IMG/VR virus record: IMGVR_UViG_3300030107_007270
Span: 1 to 21,562 of that record
Strand: one strand, 5' to 3'
Source: a virus
DNA length: 21,562 nt
Shown here: one piece after another, positions 4,979 to 20,813 of the stretch
Numbering within the stretch: position 1 is the first letter of the stretch
How the letters are laid out: each line of letters opens with the position of its first letter
The notes under the pieces: model-generated
The model's input: the letters and a program-made list of their open reading frames with translations, nothing else
Databases searched by the model: none
Told to the model about the DNA's origin: nothing
Made by a program: the position numbers and the translations under genes

Positions 4979-4984
4979 TATTTA
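4979..4984 (-). promoter_or_regulatory. Late-promoter core TAAATA, N5 before ATG
   Basis: On the minus strand this reads AGACTAAATATTTATATGG. The TAAATA core ends five bases before the ATG at 4973. It lies between the stop of the upstream paralogue and this gene and shares the 12 bases AGACTAAATATT with the promoter of that paralogue. Confidence 0.65.
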
Positions 4985-5478: not shown

Positions 5479-5484
5479 TATTTA
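5479..5484 (-). promoter_or_regulatory. Late-promoter core TAAATA, N5 before ATG
   Basis: The minus strand reads AGACTAAATATTAATATG, with five bases between TAAATA and the ATG at 5473. It lies downstream of the gp23 terminator, which is where a new promoter would be needed. Confidence 0.65.
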
Positions 5485-8252: not shown

Positions 8253-8258
8253 TATTTA
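8253..8258 (-). promoter_or_regulatory. Late-promoter core TAAATA, N5 before ATG
   Basis: The minus strand reads ATAATAAATAATATTATGGG. It starts right after the gp21 stop codon and ends five bases before the ATG of the gp67-like gene. It could serve gp67-gp22-gp23. Confidence 0.65.
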
Positions 8259-8929: not shown

Positions 8930-8935
8930 TATTTA
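8930..8935 (-). promoter_or_regulatory. Late-promoter core TAAATA, N5 before ATG
   Basis: The minus strand reads TGACTAAATAATATTATGGC. TGA is the stop of the upstream nuclease gene, and the TAAATA core ends five bases before the gp21 ATG. Confidence 0.65.
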
Positions 8936-8936
8936 G

Positions 8937-9377
8937 TCACCTCTTGGGATAAAGCTCCTTTTCTGTAATAATAATGAACGTAAACCCGCACTTTTTACAA
9001 TATTCCCGGGCTGCCTTCCATTTTGCTTGATTTGTTATAAACATTTTTTGTTCATATATTAAATGCTGCTTCTTTCTATACTTTGTTTGAGGTGGTTTTG
9101 TTTGTTTTGATGGTTTTATTTCAACAAGATAGTTTATTACCTTATTACCTTCCTTTATAGAGACAAAATTATCCACATAATATTTGTGTACTCTATTGTC
9201 AAGAGGGCTTTTATAAGGAACAACGACGTTTTCACTACCCCATTTTAAAACATTTGGATTTGTATCGCAAAATCTAAAGAACTTTAACTCTAATCCTGAT
9301 CTATATACTGCTTTTGAACCAATAAATTTTTCACAATTAGTTGGAGTAAAGACGCCTTGGCGCCATTTTTTTCTCAT
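8937..9377 (-). CDS. 4: Head completion protein, gp4/gp50 (TnsA-like nuclease fold)
   Basis: A 146-residue protein (T4 gp4 is about 150). The C-D-T-N-P-x-V-L-K-W-G-S-E motif (residues 37-49), followed by V-P-Y-x-S-P-x-D-x-x-V-H-x-Y, is diagnostic of T4-type gp4. The family has a TnsA/restriction-nuclease-like fold, and the PD-(D/E)xK set can be traced as E30, D69 and E86-I-K88. It acts on filled heads before tail joining; T4 mutants make heads that cannot accept tails. Its ATG overlaps the stop of the gp13-like gene (ATGA). In T4 this gene lies elsewhere in the genome, so its place inside the neck/head block is a local rearrangement. Confidence 0.88.
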   Translation of the reverse strand: MRKKWRQGVFTPTNCEKFIGSKAVYRSGLELKFFRFCDTNPNVLKWGSENVVVPYKSPLDNRVHKYYVDNFVSIKEGNKVINYLVEIKPSKQTKPPQTKYRKKQHLIYEQKMFITNQAKWKAAREYCKKCGFTFIIITEKELYPKR

Positions 9378-10621
9378 CCTATGAAAAACATTGGTGGTTC
9401 TGTATCGCCAAATCCGGGTGATGCTCCTTCAAATAGCTTACCTTCAAGCTCAGCTTTTCTTTCTAAACCTTCACTAAGCATATCATAGTTTAATGCTCCA
9501 CCACCTAGCAGTTGCACATTACCAAACTTACCTCTAACACGACCTATAGTTATCATACTTAGAGCTAAAGCATATTCATAAACCCATTGCTCCATAATAA
9601 CGTCTCTTATAGCGCGCTCCAAATAACAGCCAATAACACCATAAAATCTATCACCTCCCGGCTGTGGATACATTTGCATGTATTGTGTCCTAGGATCAAA
9701 TTTAACATCTTTTCGAATTGCTAAAAGCTTTTCTCTTGTATCAATCCATTCTTTAAGTGTATACCAAGAAACTAGATCAAAGCCGTAATTACCTAAAGCA
9801 TAGCTAAAGTAAGTTTGCTGCGCGAGTGTTTGCTCTAACGTAAATAATGTGTTAATCCCTGTTGTTGAACCTTCTTCAAAATCTATAACATCAACTACCT
9901 TTCTATAATTCATTACATCGTAATCAAATACATTTTGGAAGTAATATGCTTCTGTTTCCTTACCTTCGAATGTAATAGTTTGCTTAGGTGTTGCTTTAAA
10001 AAAGGATGATAATGTAGGTCTATATGCTGTTATATCTTGATACAAAGATCGATCAAAGATTTCAAAAGCTTGAATCCCGGGACCTCTACCTGCTGTTGTA
10101 TACGCAAATGTAGAGGATAGTTGAACCGAGTCAGTAAAGGCCCCGGCACTTAAAGTAGACATAGCCACATAAACTGACGCGTTTGTTCTTACGTAATTAC
10201 CTCCAGAACCAGGAGAAGCACCTGTACTTTTATTACCCGCGCTTAATATAGTGGGTGTTTGTGAGCCATAAAATTCTGGACCAGGTCCGATAGGATTGGT
10301 ACCATCTGTTTTTTGCAGTTTTGTATCTATATTTTCGTTTGCAAGAGTGTAAAGTAAATCTAATCTTATACCTCTATTTTGTTCATACATGTTAGAGTCG
10401 AATATTAAAAACTCTCTTGTATATCCTGCGTATTTAGTAAAATATTCAACTGCTATTTGAACATTTTGTCTGAGCTGGTCTGTGTGTATTTCTAGGCTTA
10501 TTAACGGATAACCTAGAGACCTCTTGATTCTATCTCCTAAATTATCATATGTTTTAATTTTATTATTTAAATTTGTTGATAAAAAAGCAGAAAGCGGTTT
10601 AATATTGCATGCAAGTGCCAT
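9374..10621 (-). CDS. Neck protein, gp13-like
   Basis: A 415-residue protein (T4 gp13 is 309). The N-terminal region has L-G-Y-P-L-I-S-L-E-I, then a helix with A-V-E-Y-F-T-K-Y. The C-terminal region runs W-V-Y-E-Y-A-L-A-L...G-x-V-Q-L-L-G-G-G-A-L-N, then E-x-K-A-E-L-E, and ends P-P-M-F-F-I-G. That end closely follows the pattern I know for gp13 of marine T4-like phages (Y-A-T-A-L-x-K-x-Q-W-G...V-Q-L-P-G-G-V-x-L-N-G...P-P-x-x-F-x-G). The middle (residues ~100-180) is a Gly/Ser/Thr-rich insert not expected in T4. gp13 and gp14 close the head and form the neck; no gp14 is visible here. The start follows TAAATA-N5, and the stop overlaps the gp4-like start. Confidence 0.68.
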   Translation of the reverse strand: MALACNIKPLSAFLSTNLNNKIKTYDNLGDRIKRSLGYPLISLEIHTDQLRQNVQIAVEYFTKYAGYTREFLIFDSNMYEQNRGIRLDLLYTLANENIDTKLQKTDGTNPIGPGPEFYGSQTPTILSAGNKSTGASPGSGGNYVRTNASVYVAMSTLSAGAFTDSVQLSSTFAYTTAGRGPGIQAFEIFDRSLYQDITAYRPTLSSFFKATPKQTITFEGKETEAYYFQNVFDYDVMNYRKVVDVIDFEEGSTTGINTLFTLEQTLAQQTYFSYALGNYGFDLVSWYTLKEWIDTREKLLAIRKDVKFDPRTQYMQMYPQPGGDRFYGVIGCYLERAIRDVIMEQWVYEYALALSMITIGRVRGKFGNVQLLGGGALNYDMLSEGLERKAELEGKLFEGASPGFGDTEPPMFFIG

Positions 10622-10626
10622 AAAAT

Positions 10627-10632
10627 TATTTA
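10627..10632 (-). promoter_or_regulatory. Late-promoter core TAAATA (leftward member of divergent pair)
   Basis: The core ends exactly five bases before the gp13-like ATG at 10621. With the plus-strand copy at 10641-10646 it forms a mirror-image pair with an eight-base centre in a 30-base intergenic region. Confidence 0.7.
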
Positions 10633-10640
10633 TTCGAGCA

Positions 10641-10646
10641 TAAATA
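10641..10646 (+). promoter_or_regulatory. Late-promoter core TAAATA (rightward member of divergent pair)
   Basis: Plus strand CATAAATAAATATATGG: five bases separate TAAATA from the ATG at 10652. The same spacing as on the opposite strand argues that it is selected. Confidence 0.7.
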
Positions 10647-10651
10647 AATAT

Positions 10652-10999
10652 ATGGCATTACCAGTACCAACATCCAACGAGGGTAGCGAATTTTTTAATA
10701 TAAATCAATGCTATTCTTTTAATGATACATATGGAACGACTCTCAACTCTTTATCATCACAACCCTGTTCTGAAGTATGGATTTGGAACCAAACCGGGCA
10801 AATCTTATATGTGTATGATCAAGATCGCTCAACAGATGATCGCAGACTAGCAATTCCGGCGGCCGCGGCTGCTACACCTCTACAGCCATATGTAATAAGA
10901 GGGCTAACAAACGCAGAGCAAGTTTCAGCAAAAACTGCTTCCGGAACTGGATTGGTTTATTGGAGAACTCAATTCTTTAGTAATAACCCATCTCGTTAA
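10652..10999 (+). CDS. Small structural-type protein on opposite strand between gp13 and gp20
   Basis: A 115-residue, beta-rich protein with a G-Q-I-L-Y-V-Y-D-Q-D motif, a central Ala/Pro patch, then Y-V-I-R-G-L-T-N-A-E-Q-V-S-A-K and Y-W-R-T-Q-F-F-S. The R-G-L-T-N...S-A...Y-x-R-T-Q-F/Y-x-S pattern reminds me of small phage virion proteins, but I cannot name the family. It is the only plus-strand gene in the head module. It has its own late-promoter core, and its stop overlaps the portal gene stop in a shared TTAA. It looks like an independently expressed late cassette dropped into the module, perhaps a head decoration or joining protein. Confidence 0.72.
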   Translation: MALPVPTSNEGSEFFNINQCYSFNDTYGTTLNSLSSQPCSEVWIWNQTGQILYVYDQDRSTDDRRLAIPAAAAATPLQPYVIRGLTNAEQVSAKTASGTGLVYWRTQFFSNNPSR

Positions 11000-12811: not shown

Positions 12812-12817
12812 TATTTA
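12812..12817 (-). promoter_or_regulatory. Late-promoter core TAAATA before gp20 (N7)
   Basis: The minus strand reads ACATAAATATATATAAATG. The core overlaps the stop codon (TAA) of the gp15-like gene and stands seven bases before the portal ATG, a slight departure from the N5 rule. Confidence 0.5.
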
Positions 12818-14046: not shown

Positions 14047-14052
14047 TATTTA
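14047..14052 (-). promoter_or_regulatory. Late-promoter core TAAATA before gp15-like gene (N11)
   Basis: The minus strand reads TAATAAATATATAAGTACGCATG. The core sits right after the helicase stop and 11 bases before the ATG, so a leader of about 5-6 bases is predicted. Confidence 0.5.
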
Positions 14053-16050: not shown

Positions 16051-16424
16051 GAATTCATAAAATTAAATTTTTGTTCTGGAGACATTGGATATATATTTTC
16101 ATTAAAATATACCCAAAAATCATCATTAGCAGGAATCTCCTGTATTAAATCACATTGCAAGGTATTTATATTTCTATAATCCTGCATTAATATATCCCAT
16201 GCAACAGCTAGTCTATCCGGACCAAGATAAGCTTTAGGGGGACCTTTTGGTGGAAAATAATTTAATGAAATCCTACCATTAACAGAGTTAAGCAGAGATA
16301 GTGATTTCGTACAAAGCATTCTTCTTGTAGGAGCTTGACCAGGTTTAATTATCCTACGAGCGAATCTTATCTCACATACATTATCCAATAGAAGGGAATC
16401 AAGAGCTGCTTTCTGTATTATCAT
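16047..16424 (-). CDS. Small Sm/SH3-barrel (WYL-like, DUF2693-type) protein, tentative
   Basis: A 125-residue protein. The pattern V-C-E-I-R-F...R-R-M-L-C-T near the start and L-A-V-A-W-D-I-L...Y-R-N-I-N-T-L-Q-C-D-L-I towards the end resembles small phage proteins with an Sm/SH3-like barrel (V-x-F-x-K...R-x-M-x-C-T...V-W-D-x-x-x-x-x-W-R-x-x). Those proteins are common in T4-like phages and have unknown function. The coding start overlaps the end of the GroES-like gene by 26 bases, and its own stop overlaps the next ATG, showing tight coupling. The assignment is a pattern memory only; it could instead be an unrelated small protein. Confidence 0.45.
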   Translation of the reverse strand: MIIQKAALDSLLLDNVCEIRFARRIIKPGQAPTRRMLCTKSLSLLNSVNGRISLNYFPPKGPPKAYLGPDRLAVAWDILMQDYRNINTLQCDLIQEIPANDDFWVYFNENIYPMSPEQKFNFMNS

Positions 16425-16830
16425 CTTTTACTTTACAGATTCCAAACATCCTCTCTTCGTTTAAAAAGATGCCCTTTTCTACCGTCCCTTTACCTGGTAC
16501 AGAGACACCGGAAATAGTAACACCCATGTTGTTTGGAAAAAGAACAATATCTCCTTCTTTGGCGTATTTAGCATCTGGACCTGATAAAATAACTTTACCC
16601 TTTCGCCAGGCCATAGTAATTTGATTTGTTGGAATTAAGATACCATTTCGCTCAATAGCATCGCCTCCATTATCAAAATTTTCTGCTAAATCAACATATT
16701 CAATTAATAGAATATCATCAAAAAGAAATGTTAAGTCATAATCGGTCAGACCGAAGTCTCCTTTATCAGAATTAGATAAGTCAATTAAACTCTTTGTAGG
16801 TGCTAAATTATCTATAGATGCCATTGCCAT
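16399..16830 (-). CDS. GroES/gp31-like co-chaperonin
   Basis: A 143-residue protein with a ~30-residue N-terminal extension, then a GroES-like fold: F-D-D-I-L-L-I (37-43, the usual x-D-R-V-L-V), a mobile-loop-like region (about 47-62), G-I-L-I-P (63-67), K-G-K-V-I-L-S-G-P (77-85), E-G-D-I-V-L-F-P (92-99) and I-F-L-N-E-E-R-M-F-G-I (121-131). In T4 the phage co-chaperonin gp31 replaces GroES so that host GroEL can fold gp23, and the same role is likely here. An in-frame ATG exists at 16845, but the start at 16830 is preferred because TAAATA lies exactly five bases before it and the longer form would run through the promoter. It heads the co-chaperonin/helicase operon. Confidence 0.75.
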   Translation of the reverse strand: MAMASIDNLAPTKSLIDLSNSDKGDFGLTDYDLTFLFDDILLIEYVDLAENFDNGGDAIERNGILIPTNQITMAWRKGKVILSGPDAKYAKEGDIVLFPNNMGVTISGVSVPGKGTVEKGIFLNEERMFGICKVKDDNTESSS

Positions 16831-16835
16831 GAAAC

Positions 16836-16841
16836 TATTTA
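16836..16841 (-). promoter_or_regulatory. Late-promoter core TAAATA, N5 before ATG
   Basis: The minus strand reads GTTAAATAGTTTCATGGC. The core is five bases before the co-chaperonin ATG, in the 36-base gap after the sugar operon. It sets the start at 16830. Confidence 0.6.
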
Positions 16842-16866
16842 ACAATATAGTTCCTTTTATCCAATA

Positions 16867-17691
16867 TTAGACGGGCTTATAGTGAACGTTTTGCTCCTTT
16901 TCTCTAGCATCAAGTTCATAATTTTTTCTATATTCATTATTTGCTTTTATAGATTCATTAAGAATTGAAAAGCATGATGCAAATGTATTAAACGCTGCGG
17001 TATCTTTTGGAAAGCATGCTCCTCCAAATCCTCTCTTATTATCAAAGCCCGGTACAGTCGTATGTGAGTGCGTAATTCGAGGATCTGATCCTATAGCACT
17101 TACAATAGTATTATAATTAGCTCCATGTTTTTTTGCTATATCATACATTTGATTAAAGAATGTAACTTTAGTAGCTAGAAAAGTATTAATACCGTATTTA
17201 ACAAATGATGCTTCTGCGGCTGACATATGAAAAACAGGGCACGGACGACATATACTAAATTCGTTGTATATCTCTTGAAGCTCTTGTGTGTTATGACCTG
17301 CACCTCCTAATACAAGCATAAACTGATTTACAAAATCTTCATTAGCGTTTTTTTCAGTTAAAAATTCCGGATTATAAACAAAGTCTTTAAATTTATTAGA
17401 TAGTCTATCTGCAATATCCGGTGTCACCGTTGATTTGAGAACAATTAATGCATTAGTAAAGTCGTTAACTTCTGTACAGCACTGCTCTACTATTGACGCG
17501 TCGATGCTACCGTCATCTCCCATAGGTGTTGGCGCACATATAAAAACAACATCTGGTTTAAAAGACAATAAATCTTCACACGTAGTGTTGTAATTTGGAT
17601 CTATTAACTTCTTTTTAACCCTATTACTAAATCCATAGTCAACAGCTTTACCAACAAAGCCGTGACCTACGATTCCAACTTTAAGATCCAT
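16867..17691 (-). CDS. UDP-glucose/GDP-mannose dehydrogenase family, C-terminally short
   Basis: A 274-residue protein of the NAD-dependent nucleotide-sugar dehydrogenase family (usual length 390-450). Seen: G-H-G-F-V-G (9-14, NAD binding), P-T-P (54-56), K-S-T-V (86-89), Y-N-P-E-F-L (106-111), K165 and N169 of the central helix, and G-F-G-G-A-C-F-P-K-D (221-230) with catalytic Cys226. It ends soon after the central dimer helix, so the usual C-terminal UDP-binding Rossmann domain is missing. Full enzymes oxidise UDP-glucose to UDP-glucuronate (or a related sugar) in two steps. Whether this short form is active or has another substrate is open. It overlaps the epimerase gene by 11 bases and is the last gene of the sugar operon. 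Confidence 0.85.
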   Translation of the reverse strand: MDLKVGIVGHGFVGKAVDYGFSNRVKKKLIDPNYNTTCEDLLSFKPDVVFICAPTPMGDDGSIDASIVEQCCTEVNDFTNALIVLKSTVTPDIADRLSNKFKDFVYNPEFLTEKNANEDFVNQFMLVLGGAGHNTQELQEIYNEFSICRPCPVFHMSAAEASFVKYGINTFLATKVTFFNQMYDIAKKHGANYNTIVSAIGSDPRITHSHTTVPGFDNKRGFGGACFPKDTAAFNTFASCFSILNESIKANNEYRKNYELDAREKEQNVHYKPV

Positions 17692-18592
17692 ATGATTTAA
17701 TCCAATCTGCTAAATCGATACTTGGCTCATAACCAAGAAGGTTTTTAATTTTTGTTAAATCAGCTAATGTTTCTCTTGCTTCGCCGGGTCGATTTTCGAT
17801 AAACTTAGTTTCACCGCCAATAATATCTGCAACGTCTAGAACACTATAGTTTTTACCAGTACCCACGTTAAATACCTCTCCTAGAATATCCGGATTATCA
17901 CTATGTGCTGCTAGAATATTAGCTTTAACAACATCACCCACATATGTAAAATCTCTTGTCTGTTTACCGTCGCCAACAACAGTCATAGGCTGACCAGCAT
18001 CTTTTTGTTTTTGAAAAATACCAATTAATGGAGCATATTGTCCTTTTAGAGGTTGCCGTTCACCATAAACATTAAAATATCTAAAAATAACTGTTTCAAG
18101 ATCAAACAAATTATAATACATTTTACATAGATCTTCAGCTGCAGCTTTTGATACTGAATATGGATTGAGACAGTCTCTAGGCATGTCTTCATTTAATGGA
18201 CATTTATTTTTAAGGCCATATACTGAAGACGTAGATGAAAACATAAATCTCTTAACACCATGCTCTCTACTTTGTTGTAACATGTTACATGTACCAACGA
18301 CGTTAACATCACACGATTCAATTGGATTCTTAATTGCAATTGGAATTCTAGAATGTGCGGCTAAATGAAATACATAATCTGGTTTAAAGCTAGAAAAAAT
18401 CTTACTACACTCTCTTTGATCTGTTATATTAATTAGATAATTATGTTGTGCTTTATCGTTCCAGTAAAATTGGGAATTAACTGATGAACTTTCATTATCG
18501 ATAACTGCGACTTCATATCCCTTTTTAATAAGCGTATCAACTAAATTTGATCCTATAAACCCTGCTCCTCCTGTTACTAATGCTCTACTCAT
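17681..18592 (-). CDS. NAD-dependent sugar-nucleotide epimerase (GalE-like SDR)
   Basis: A 303-residue extended short-chain dehydrogenase. T-G-G-A-G-F-I-G (7-14) binds NAD, H-L-A-A-H (76-80) and S-S-T-S-S-V-Y-G (119-126) line the active site, and Y145-S-V-S-K149 is the catalytic pair. R-Y-F-N-V-Y-G and R-D-F-T-Y-V-G-D-V-V match UDP-glucose/UDP-GlcNAc 4-epimerases and the related UDP-glucuronate 4-epimerases; TDP-glucose dehydratase is less likely. With the dehydrogenase that follows (11-base overlap) it could make a galacturonate-type donor. It overlaps the end of the clamp-loader-like gene by 8 bases. The substrate cannot be read from the sequence. Confidence 0.85.
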   Translation of the reverse strand: MSRALVTGGAGFIGSNLVDTLIKKGYEVAVIDNESSSVNSQFYWNDKAQHNYLINITDQRECSKIFSSFKPDYVFHLAAHSRIPIAIKNPIESCDVNVVGTCNMLQQSREHGVKRFMFSSTSSVYGLKNKCPLNEDMPRDCLNPYSVSKAAAEDLCKMYYNLFDLETVIFRYFNVYGERQPLKGQYAPLIGIFQKQKDAGQPMTVVGDGKQTRDFTYVGDVVKANILAAHSDNPDILGEVFNVGTGKNYSVLDVADIIGGETKFIENRPGEARETLADLTKIKNLLGYEPSIDLADWIKSYGS

Positions 18593-18950
18593 ATTCTTTT
18601 ATATATTTTTTAAGTTCTCTGACAGAAATATTTTTATTTTTCGCGAAGGTAGATAAATCTATTTCGTCATCCTTTTTATCCTTTTTATTCTTCTTGATAT
18701 AAGAAATCTTTTTCCACTTTAGACGGGGAATAAGGTGATAATATAATTTATACGTGTCTTGTTTATCTTCAAATATTGTACTAAATTTATTGAGCGTCTC
18801 GTTTGTAAAAATAGCCATGTCGTTATTATAAAAAGACAACCAACGATTAAACAAAAACGGTACAAAAGCTTGCTCACCTTCTGCATCTAAATTGTCTACT
18901 TTTTCTTTCTTCGAATAAAAGAGTTTGTTTTGTAGTTGAAAAAAGTTCAT
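18585..18950 (-). CDS. Clamp-loader small subunit, gp62-like (tentative)
   Basis: A 121-residue basic protein beginning M-N-F-F-Q-L. The ATG overlaps the stop of the upstream gene (ATGA at 18947-18950), which favours this start over the in-frame ATG at 18965. The pattern P-F-L-F-N-R-W-L-S-F-Y, then a middle helix, L-Y-Y-H-L-I-P-R-L-K-W-K-K-I-S-Y-I-K-K and a final short helix (V-R-E-L-K-K-Y-I) resembles the short gp62 proteins of marine T4-like phages (P-[YF]-x-x-N-R-x-L-S...F-L-x-x-x-I-R-x-x-K-R-x-x-x-W). gp62 works with gp44 to load the gp45 sliding clamp. Its place inside a sugar-nucleotide operon is unusual and no gp44 or gp45 is in view. Identification is by remembered pattern, not by search. 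Confidence 0.5.
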   Translation of the reverse strand: MNFFQLQNKLFYSKKEKVDNLDAEGEQAFVPFLFNRWLSFYNNDMAIFTNETLNKFSTIFEDKQDTYKLYYHLIPRLKWKKISYIKKNKKDKKDDEIDLSTFAKNKNISVRELKKYIKEYE

Positions 18951-19927
18951 AGTTTTTGATCCCAATATTCTATCATTTCATCAAGCATACTTTCAAAAGT
19001 ATACGTCGGTTCCCACCCTATTGCATTTTTTAACTTAGTACAATCACCTTTTAGATCATTCAATTCTTCTGGTCGAAGAAACTTTTGATCCGTTCCAACG
19101 CAGTCCTTACTTATTTTAAGCTTTGAAAAAGTATAATCAACTAGATCTTCAACTGAATGCGATATACCTGTAGCGCATACAAAATCATCTGGGGTATCAT
19201 GTTGTAATATTTGCCACATTGCACGTACATAATCTTTCGCATGCCCCCAGTCTCTAGTAGCGTTTAAATTTCCTAGTGTTAATTCTTTTTTAATACCTTT
19301 TTTAATCTGCATAGCCGTCTTTACGACTTTTGACGTTACAAAGTTGCTACCTCTTCTCGGAGATTCATGATTAAATAAAATACCATTTGATACAAATAAA
19401 TTATACGACTGGCGATAGTTTTTACATATATTATAAGAGTATACCTTAGAGCATCCGTATGGAGATACCGGATTCATTGGCGTTGTTTCGCGTTGATAAC
19501 CATCACTATCAACACTATTACCAAACATTTCAGAAGAAGATGCTTGATACATCTTAATAGTTGGATCAATAATACGAATTGATTCCAATAAATTTAAGGT
19601 ACCTAAACCTGTACTAAGTGTAGTGTATATTGGTTGATCAAAGCTGATTCTAACATGTGACTGTGCAGCTAGATTATATATTTCTGTTGGTCTAGATTTA
19701 TGAATTGCTGATATTAACGAAGACTGATCGCATAAATCTGCATAAAATAAATTTTCTCTTATCTCTTTATATACGTTATCTAACCTAGCAGTTTGGTTTT
19801 CTGAAACAGAATTACGCTTAATAGTACCAAAAACTTCATACCCCTTTTCTAGTAAAAATTCAGCCAAGTACGAGCCATCTTGTCCATTTATACCTGTAAT
19901 TAACGCTCTATTTCCGTGTTTGTTCAT
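18947..19927 (-). CDS. gmd: GDP-mannose 4,6-dehydratase
   Basis: A 326-residue extended SDR enzyme. T-G-I-N-G-Q-D-G-S-Y-L-A-E (11-23), N-L-A-A-Q-S-H-V (85-92), S-S-S-E-M-F-G (130-136), Y157-G-C-S-K161 and F-N-H-E-S-P-R-R-G (185-193) are diagnostic of GDP-mannose 4,6-dehydratase, which makes GDP-4-keto-6-deoxymannose using tightly bound NADP. The neighbouring gene upstream encodes the next enzyme, GDP-fucose synthase, so the pair forms a complete GDP-L-fucose route. It overlaps that gene by 20 bases and the clamp-loader-like gene by 3. The length is slightly below the usual 345-370, with no missing motif. Confidence 0.95.
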   Translation of the reverse strand: MNKHGNRALITGINGQDGSYLAEFLLEKGYEVFGTIKRNSVSENQTARLDNVYKEIRENLFYADLCDQSSLISAIHKSRPTEIYNLAAQSHVRISFDQPIYTTLSTGLGTLNLLESIRIIDPTIKMYQASSSEMFGNSVDSDGYQRETTPMNPVSPYGCSKVYSYNICKNYRQSYNLFVSNGILFNHESPRRGSNFVTSKVVKTAMQIKKGIKKELTLGNLNATRDWGHAKDYVRAMWQILQHDTPDDFVCATGISHSVEDLVDYTFSKLKISKDCVGTDQKFLRPEELNDLKGDCTKLKNAIGWEPTYTFESMLDEMIEYWDQKL

Positions 19928-20813
19928 AGTTTTTATTAAACCATTCTACTGTTTCTTCGAGACCGTCTTTTAGATTTGTAAACTTAAAATCTGGAAACAA
20001 CTCCTTTACCTTAGAATTATCAGTTGGTTTTTTATACTGACCATCAGGCTTATCTGTATTCCAAACAACCTTACCTTTAAATTTAAACACATCTACCAAA
20101 ATATCAACAACCTCTCTAATTGAAATTTCTTCACTCGTTGACAATATTACTGGTTCTGTTTCTTTATATTCATCAAGTAACCTCTCAGTAAGCACAGCTA
20201 CGTCTTTAGCGAAAATAAACTCCCTTAAAGGTTTACCGGTTCCCCATACTTCAAAATCTTTATTATATTTTTTTGACTTATACATTTTATGTATAAGCAT
20301 AGGAACGACGTGACCGTGTTCTAAGGAAAAATTATCACTAGGACCGTAAATATTTGTTGGAATAACACAAAAGTATTCTTTACCATATTGCTCATTAATA
20401 GTTCTTATTTGAACTTCTGACATTCTCTTCGCATACGCATATCCAAAATTTGATTCATGCGGAGGTCCGTCGTGAAGATACTGTGGTCTTATAGGATACT
20501 TTACTACATTTGGAAAAATACACGTAGTTAAAAAACAAGCCAATCTTTCGACGTCATTTTTTAGGCACTGATTTATTACATTAGTATTAATGCTGATATT
20601 TTCATAATAATAATCAGCCTTATACGTCATATTTGACCCTAAGCCACCAACTCTTGCCGCTGTGTGAATAACACGGCTAGGTTTAACTTCTTTAAAAAGC
20701 TTTGTTGTTTCAATATTGGATATAAGATCGTAATCTTTAGAAGATACCTTAATAAAATCTTTATTAAAATGACTTCCTACTAATCCAGTTCCTCCAGTTA
20801 CTAATGTACTCAT
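19908..20813 (-). CDS. fcl: GDP-L-fucose synthase
   Basis: A 301-residue SDR enzyme that epimerises and reduces GDP-4-keto-6-deoxymannose to GDP-L-fucose with NADPH. T-G-G-T-G-L-V-G (6-13), A-A-R-V-G-G (52-57), T-T-C-I-F-P (96-101, the usual S-[ST]-C-I-Y-P), Y125-A-Y-A-K129, and I-P-T-N-[IV]-Y-G-P-x-D-N-F are the family hallmarks. The ATG overlaps the stop of the DUF366-like gene (ATGA). It works with the gmd product encoded next. GDP-fucose is a donor for fucosylated surface glycans or LPS; no fucosyltransferase is in the window. Confidence 0.95.
   Translation of the reverse strand: MSTLVTGGTGLVGSHFNKDFIKVSSKDYDLISNIETTKLFKEVKPSRVIHTAARVGGLGSNMTYKADYYYENISINTNVINQCLKNDVERLACFLTTCIFPNVVKYPIRPQYLHDGPPHESNFGYAYAKRMSEVQIRTINEQYGKEYFCVIPTNIYGPSDNFSLEHGHVVPMLIHKMYKSKKYNKDFEVWGTGKPLREFIFAKDVAVLTERLLDEYKETEPVILSTSEEISIREVVDILVDVFKFKGKVVWNTDKPDGQYKKPTDNSKVKELFPDFKFTNLKDGLEETVEWFNKNYEQTRK

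Follow-up and report, generated by a model that had tools for sequence, protein, structure and literature searches.

Late transcription in phage T4 depends on gp55, gp33 and gp45 and starts from promoters with the consensus TATAAATA, whose box spans positions -13 to -6 (PMC2988020). The late promoters of the cyanophages S-PM2, Syn9 and P-HM2 follow this consensus except that its first base is free, NATAAATA (PMC2984593). The lineage studied here shares with T4 the 8-bp box NATAAATA, an AT-rich stretch downstream of it, its placement at structural genes and, in relatives, a gp55 gene. However, the T4 core lies mostly 19-30 nt from the ATG, with a leader that carries a Shine-Dalgarno (SD) sequence in between, whereas in this lineage it lies 5 nt from the ATG, with no SD and, as predicted from this spacing, no leader. 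The cyanophages differ in the same respect: their cores are mostly 19-40 nt from the ATG, and the stretches of S-PM2, P-HM2 and P-TIM40 examined contained no core at five bases (N5).

The Pelagibacter phage HTVC008M, a cultured SAR11 phage, resembles the present lineage in having a distinct group of 11-12 genes at N5 and a mirror pair of its own at gp025/gp026 (L138:18917-18942). This pair reads CAT-GTTAC-TATTTA-TATC-TAAATA-AGGAT-ATG, with only 4 bases between the cores. The phage differs in that N5 is limited to a subset of its late genes and in that 46% of its genes have an SD; its gp13 was not found by tblastn with the protein described below.

Two further systems place opposed promoters close together. 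T4 genes 4/53 and 26/51 are divergent late pairs in which the two late boxes lie within a few bases of each other (L140:2326-2395 and 41421-41490), but these boxes overlap, facing inward or sharing the palindrome TATTTATAAATA, because long leaders push them inward, whereas the present pair stands back to back. The bidirectional promoters of E. coli (Warman, Grainger) also hold two polymerase orientations, with steric exclusion, on one short symmetric AT-rich site. They are built on one shared -10, however, and the distance between their transcription start sites (TSSs) is in most cases 10, 18 or 23 bp (PMC12825309); the locus described here has two separate cores and predicted TSSs 31 bp apart, and is therefore not of the shared -10 type.

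The divergent region at 10622-10651

The window, by which we mean the whole stretch of DNA analysed, is a single IMG/VR record of 21,562 bases and is a fragment from an uncultured T4-like phage of the ocean. Between a minus-strand ATG at 10621 and a plus-strand ATG at 10652 it reads AAAAT-TATTTA-TTCGAGCA-TAAATA-AATAT, so that each core lies five bases from its own start codon and eight bases separate the cores. A preliminary description had given this layout as N5-TATTTA-N8-TAAATA-N5, with the same spacing on both strands; its sequence and coordinates are exact. The features of the region and its flanking genes are as follows.

9374..10621, minus strand: gp13-like head-tail adaptor Ad2, 415 aa (phrog_211, E 9.6e-16)
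10621, minus strand: predicted +1 of the gp13 mRNA (A of ATG), from the T4 late box at -13 to -6 (PMC2988020)
10622..10651, no strand: the whole divergent intergenic region, 30 bp, AAAATTATTTATTCGAGCATAAATAAATAT
10627..10632, minus strand: gp13 T4-type late promoter core TAAATA (TATTTA on plus), N5 to ATG; full box AATAAATA, upstream G at -14
10633..10635, minus strand: GAA, positions -14 to -12 of the gp13 promoter (from the logo and the list of spacers)
10638..10640, plus strand: GCA, positions -14 to -12 of the plus-gene promoter (from the logo and the list of spacers)
10641..10646, plus strand: plus-gene T4-type late promoter core TAAATA, N5 to ATG; box CATAAATA
10645..10650, plus strand: second TAAATA, at N1, overlapping the plus core
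10652, plus strand: predicted +1 of the plus-gene mRNA (A of ATG), from the T4 late box at -13 to -6 (PMC2988020)
10652..10999, plus strand: small beta-sandwich protein, 115 aa, uncharacterised, without a family match (structure model, pLDDT 80)

The gp13-like gene belongs to a T4-type cluster with gp20 (portal), gp15, gp21 and gp23. The product of the plus-strand gene is probably a virion component. Searches of PDB and PHROG gave it no confident identity, although its homologs have N, C, G, S and R positions conserved in common, and its modelled fold appears similar to those of many uncharacterised tailed-phage proteins of 85-100 aa. Neither gene has a homolog in the annotated phage collection, and a search of genome contigs with the portal protein, aimed at identifying the host, found no relative. 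Elsewhere in the window, a 1070 aa repetitive frame near the left contig end (96-3308, listed start TTG) encodes a tail-spike or structural protein, and a nucleotide-sugar cluster with a UDP-glucose dehydrogenase and several epimerases occupies 16867-20813.

Both AATAAATA and CATAAATA fit the -10 box TATAAATA/NATAAATA. As the T4 box ends at -6 and five further bases follow, +1 is predicted on the A of each ATG, which puts the two starts 31 bp apart and back to back. The two full promoters leave 2 free bases between them (10636-10637). The second TAAATA at 10645-10650 is probably not functional, because it is absent in many relatives. An 18-nt inverted repeat, 89% complementary, spans 10616-10657 and takes in both ATGGCA starts; comparison with relatives explains it as the two promoters plus the Met-Ala starts. 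The region contained no terminator-like site, and matches to host sigma-70 promoters (3, against 2.0 expected) were not in excess.

Late cores and start codons

Late cores also sit upstream of other genes in the window, including those for gp21, gp20 and gp15, as is the case for gp13.

4979..4984, minus strand: late core, N5 to ATG 4973
5479..5484, minus strand: late core, N5 to ATG 5473
8253..8258, minus strand: late core, N5 to ATG 8247
8930..8935, minus strand: late core, N5 to ATG 8924 (gp21 protease)
12812..12817, minus strand: late core, N7 to ATG 12804 (gp20 portal)
14047..14052, minus strand: late core, N11 to ATG 14035 (gp15)
16836..16841, minus strand: late core, N5 to ATG 16830 (143 aa ORF)

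Over the whole window, TAAATA occurs no more often than chance predicts (50 times, against 50.4 expected), and a plain motif count would have dismissed any claim of selection; what counts is its position relative to the ATG. In the window alone, TAAATA stands at precisely N5 before six of the 24 listed starts, where 0.03 are expected (P about 3e-13), and ATG 16830 is a seventh if ORF 16399-16845 begins there. By comparison, among 300,000 shuffles of the 30 bases at 10622-10651, 9 reproduced the exact layout, and both hexamers were present somewhere in 1.7%. Thus, although selection on the motif is supported, the region by itself is weaker proof of it than the preliminary description claimed in calling it the strongest single one. 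The real proof is the N5 rule, which holds across genes and relatives.

In 38 non-redundant relative loci, with ORF starts called mechanically, the core stood at N5 before 159 starts and at N2, N3 and N4 before 1 each, while N6 to N11 had 19, 12, 10, 10, 2 and 33. A further 23 starts were at N1, many of them from the overlapping tandem TAAATAAATA, as at 10645-10650. The near-empty N2-N4 class together with the tail at N6-N11 gives the lopsided profile that would be expected if the start site cannot lie beyond the AUG. Anagram controls all fell below TAAATA-N5; the highest of them, ATAAAT at N6 and AATAAT at N3, overlap with the TAAATA sites themselves. Since most of the relatives have a common ancestry, locus counts are non-independent; we therefore also give counts by family and by distinct sequence, which are less affected. 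With homologs collapsed, N5 was the modal spacing in 23 of 36 gene families, and every other spacing was modal in two families at most. In six large relatives TAAATANNNNNATG occurred 43, 30, 40, 16, 16 and 15 times (total 160), compared to 7, 5, 2, 3, 3 and 1 (total 21) for its reversed control.

The gene context of the core is that of a promoter. In a greedy, mechanical ORF set, 66 starts had no upstream neighbour in the same direction; of these, 58 had the core at N5 and 6 more at N6-12 (64/66 within 12 nt), although many of the divergent starts represent a single gene pair found in related contigs. Where a start overlaps an upstream gene, a core within 12 nt was seen in only 1 of 118 cases. 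A core that is common at divergent starts and rare at overlapping ones has a promoter-like distribution, not that of a ribosome-binding signal. In one relative the plus gene is followed directly downstream by a tandem paralog (L002, 2873-3214), which has no late core and is preceded by AAAAGAGAGTAGAT. A logo with one site per family gave [G/T]-N-A-TAAATA-A-T-T, which equals NATAAATA; 75% of families have A at -12. A profile search found the late sigma factor gp55 encoded in all six large relatives (E 1e-25 to 1e-27). The same approach found gp33 in 0/6 and gp45 in 1/6, with poor sensitivity for these divergent sequences and in records that may be fragments.

Conservation of the mirror pair and alternative readings

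Both cores were present in all 104 relative loci that keep both genes (22 distinct intergenic sequences). The preliminary description had named the loss of a core in such loci as what would refute it, and none of them lacked one. The distance from each core to its own ATG in these loci was 5, rarely 6. The gp13 core was at N5 in 38/38 non-redundant gp13 homologs and the plus core at N5 or N6 in all 22 distinct sequences; N6 was confined to the plus core of one relative group and the gp13 core of one relative. The gap between the cores was less constant. Over the 104 loci and the window it was 8 in 80, 7 in 17, 9 in 3, 6 in 1, 27 in 3 and 47 in 1, and in the gap-27 and gap-47 cases each core remained beside its own gene. 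In L050 and L051 the plus homolog has been relocated and is encoded on the gp13 strand, where it retains its own TAAATA-N5-ATG, and the gp13 core is retained without a divergent partner in L055-L062, L135 and L137. Thus, the two cores are independent of each other. Further mirror pairs occur at other genes. Five of the six large relatives have a second one, with 10 bases between the cores, between genes of 108-118 aa and 144-145 aa (L145:4186-4223, L146:4363-4400, L148:3990-4027, L150:5228-5265 and L151:4043-4080). One relative has a third (L147:3367-3425), with 31 bases between the cores, which separates an amidase-like endolysin from an 84 aa hydrophobic, possibly holin-like protein.

Two complete promoters, with -14 to -12 included, need 28 bp together with their N5 spacers, and the region measures 29-31 bp in nearly every relative, so that the symmetry amounts to the minimal tiling of two predicted leaderless promoters. 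We consider it likely that the region holds two independent, complete T4-type late promoters back to back, which would give leaderless mRNAs and fire alternately, as a matter of packing and not as a switch. Each promoter would be a gp55-type -10 box (consensus about G-N-A-TAAATA) with its last base 5 nt from its own start codon. Transcription would start on the A of the AUG, and the boxes must adjoin the ATGs because there would be no leader to separate them. In a compact genome, divergent genes would then be left with two mirrored promoters and 0-3 free bases (2 x 14 + 0-3 = 28-31 bp). A bound polymerase would block the other promoter during its occupancy, the promoters would alternate, and over many genome copies both late genes would be expressed.

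It had also been proposed that two polymerases could not bind at once and that gp13 and the plus-strand gene fire in a mutually exclusive manner. The first point is plausible. In the activated T4 late complex the sliding clamp is pressed on RNAP from upstream (footprint +13 bp; PMC2988020), and with predicted starts 31 bp apart and a clamp directly upstream of each RNAP, simultaneous binding of two late complexes at 10622-10651 would be implausible. However, steric exclusion in time is not regulation, and regulated mutually exclusive firing is not supported. That the mirror is kept so that the firing of one gene excludes that of the other seems to us quite unlikely, even though 101 of the 105 sequences (104 loci and the window) have 6-9 bp between cores, double occupancy is implausible, and strongly activated bidirectional promoters of E. 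coli repress the divergent partner (PMC12825309). Such repression was seen only under strong one-way activation, and at basal activity promoters with even closer starts did not compete (PMC12825309). In addition, the gap varies between 6 and 9 and widens to 27 or 47 in loci that retain both genes with their cores, each core follows its own ATG, the gp13 core does without its partner, and the two genes look like late structural genes that are needed together. We rejected regulated exclusion on the unheld core-core spacing and the rearranged relatives.

The remaining readings concern the motif itself. TAAATA-N5 could act in the mRNA as a translation-initiation signal that replaces the SD, and not as a promoter, as its fixed distance to the ATG and the lack of SD in the lineage might suggest. 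We regard this as unlikely and rejected it on its wrong distribution over gene contexts: the motif is nearly universal at divergent starts and nearly absent where a start overlaps an upstream gene. The spacing is also asymmetric (2-4 almost never, with a tail above 5), and the sequence is identical to the T4 late box. Kozak-like bacterial initiation signals are expected to have A at -3, where these starts have T (60-68%). An operator palindrome bound by a phage repressor or activator would account for the inverted repeat about the centre and for the perfect palindrome TATTTATTCGCGAATAAATA in the L017 and L019 groups. It is nonetheless very improbable, since the sequence and length of the centre vary freely in relatives, the symmetric arms are merely two promoters plus ATGGCA, and the same core stands singly at many genes; the lack of a conserved centre led us to reject it. 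Chance in AT-rich DNA, with which the window-wide frequency of TAAATA agrees, is scarcely credible given the N5 excess in the window alone, and was already refuted by conservation in 22 distinct sequences.

Proposed leaderless late transcription in a marine T4-like lineage

The reading as two tiled late promoters has consequences for translation. In the window lineage an SD signal was found at 7% of 385 starts and at 7% of random positions, that is, at random level, compared to 46-59% of starts in HTVC008M, Mosig, Melnitz and T4. Its absence from the window and relatives suggests a host or an initiation mode without SD. With T4 geometry, N5 leaves no room for a leader or an SD, and the fixed distance suggests leaderless late mRNAs in this phage group. 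Late cores lie mostly 19-40 nt from the ATG in T4, S-PM2, P-HM2, P-TIM40 and Melnitz, and Mosig is mixed; the leaderless layout of late promoters is thus lineage-specific. Ribosomal protein S21, present in HTVC008M, was not found in the six large relatives. We found no published leaderless late mRNAs of T4-like phages in an incomplete coverage of the literature.

On balance, we favour the view that a whole marine T4-like lineage, and in part the SAR11 phage HTVC008M, moved its gp55 late promoters flush to the start codons, giving a leaderless late programme in an SD-free setting, with mirror pairs as its signature at divergent genes. Mirror promoters would then be explained as packing rather than as a switch. 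Promoter prediction has failed in pelagimyophages (PMC7029224), and flush promoters are a possible reason. HTVC008M on Pelagibacter provides a cultured system in which leaderless late translation by a T4-type phage can be tested directly, and NATAAATA-N5-ATG offers a simple rule for locating late genes and their correct start codons in marine T4-like phages that have not been cultured.
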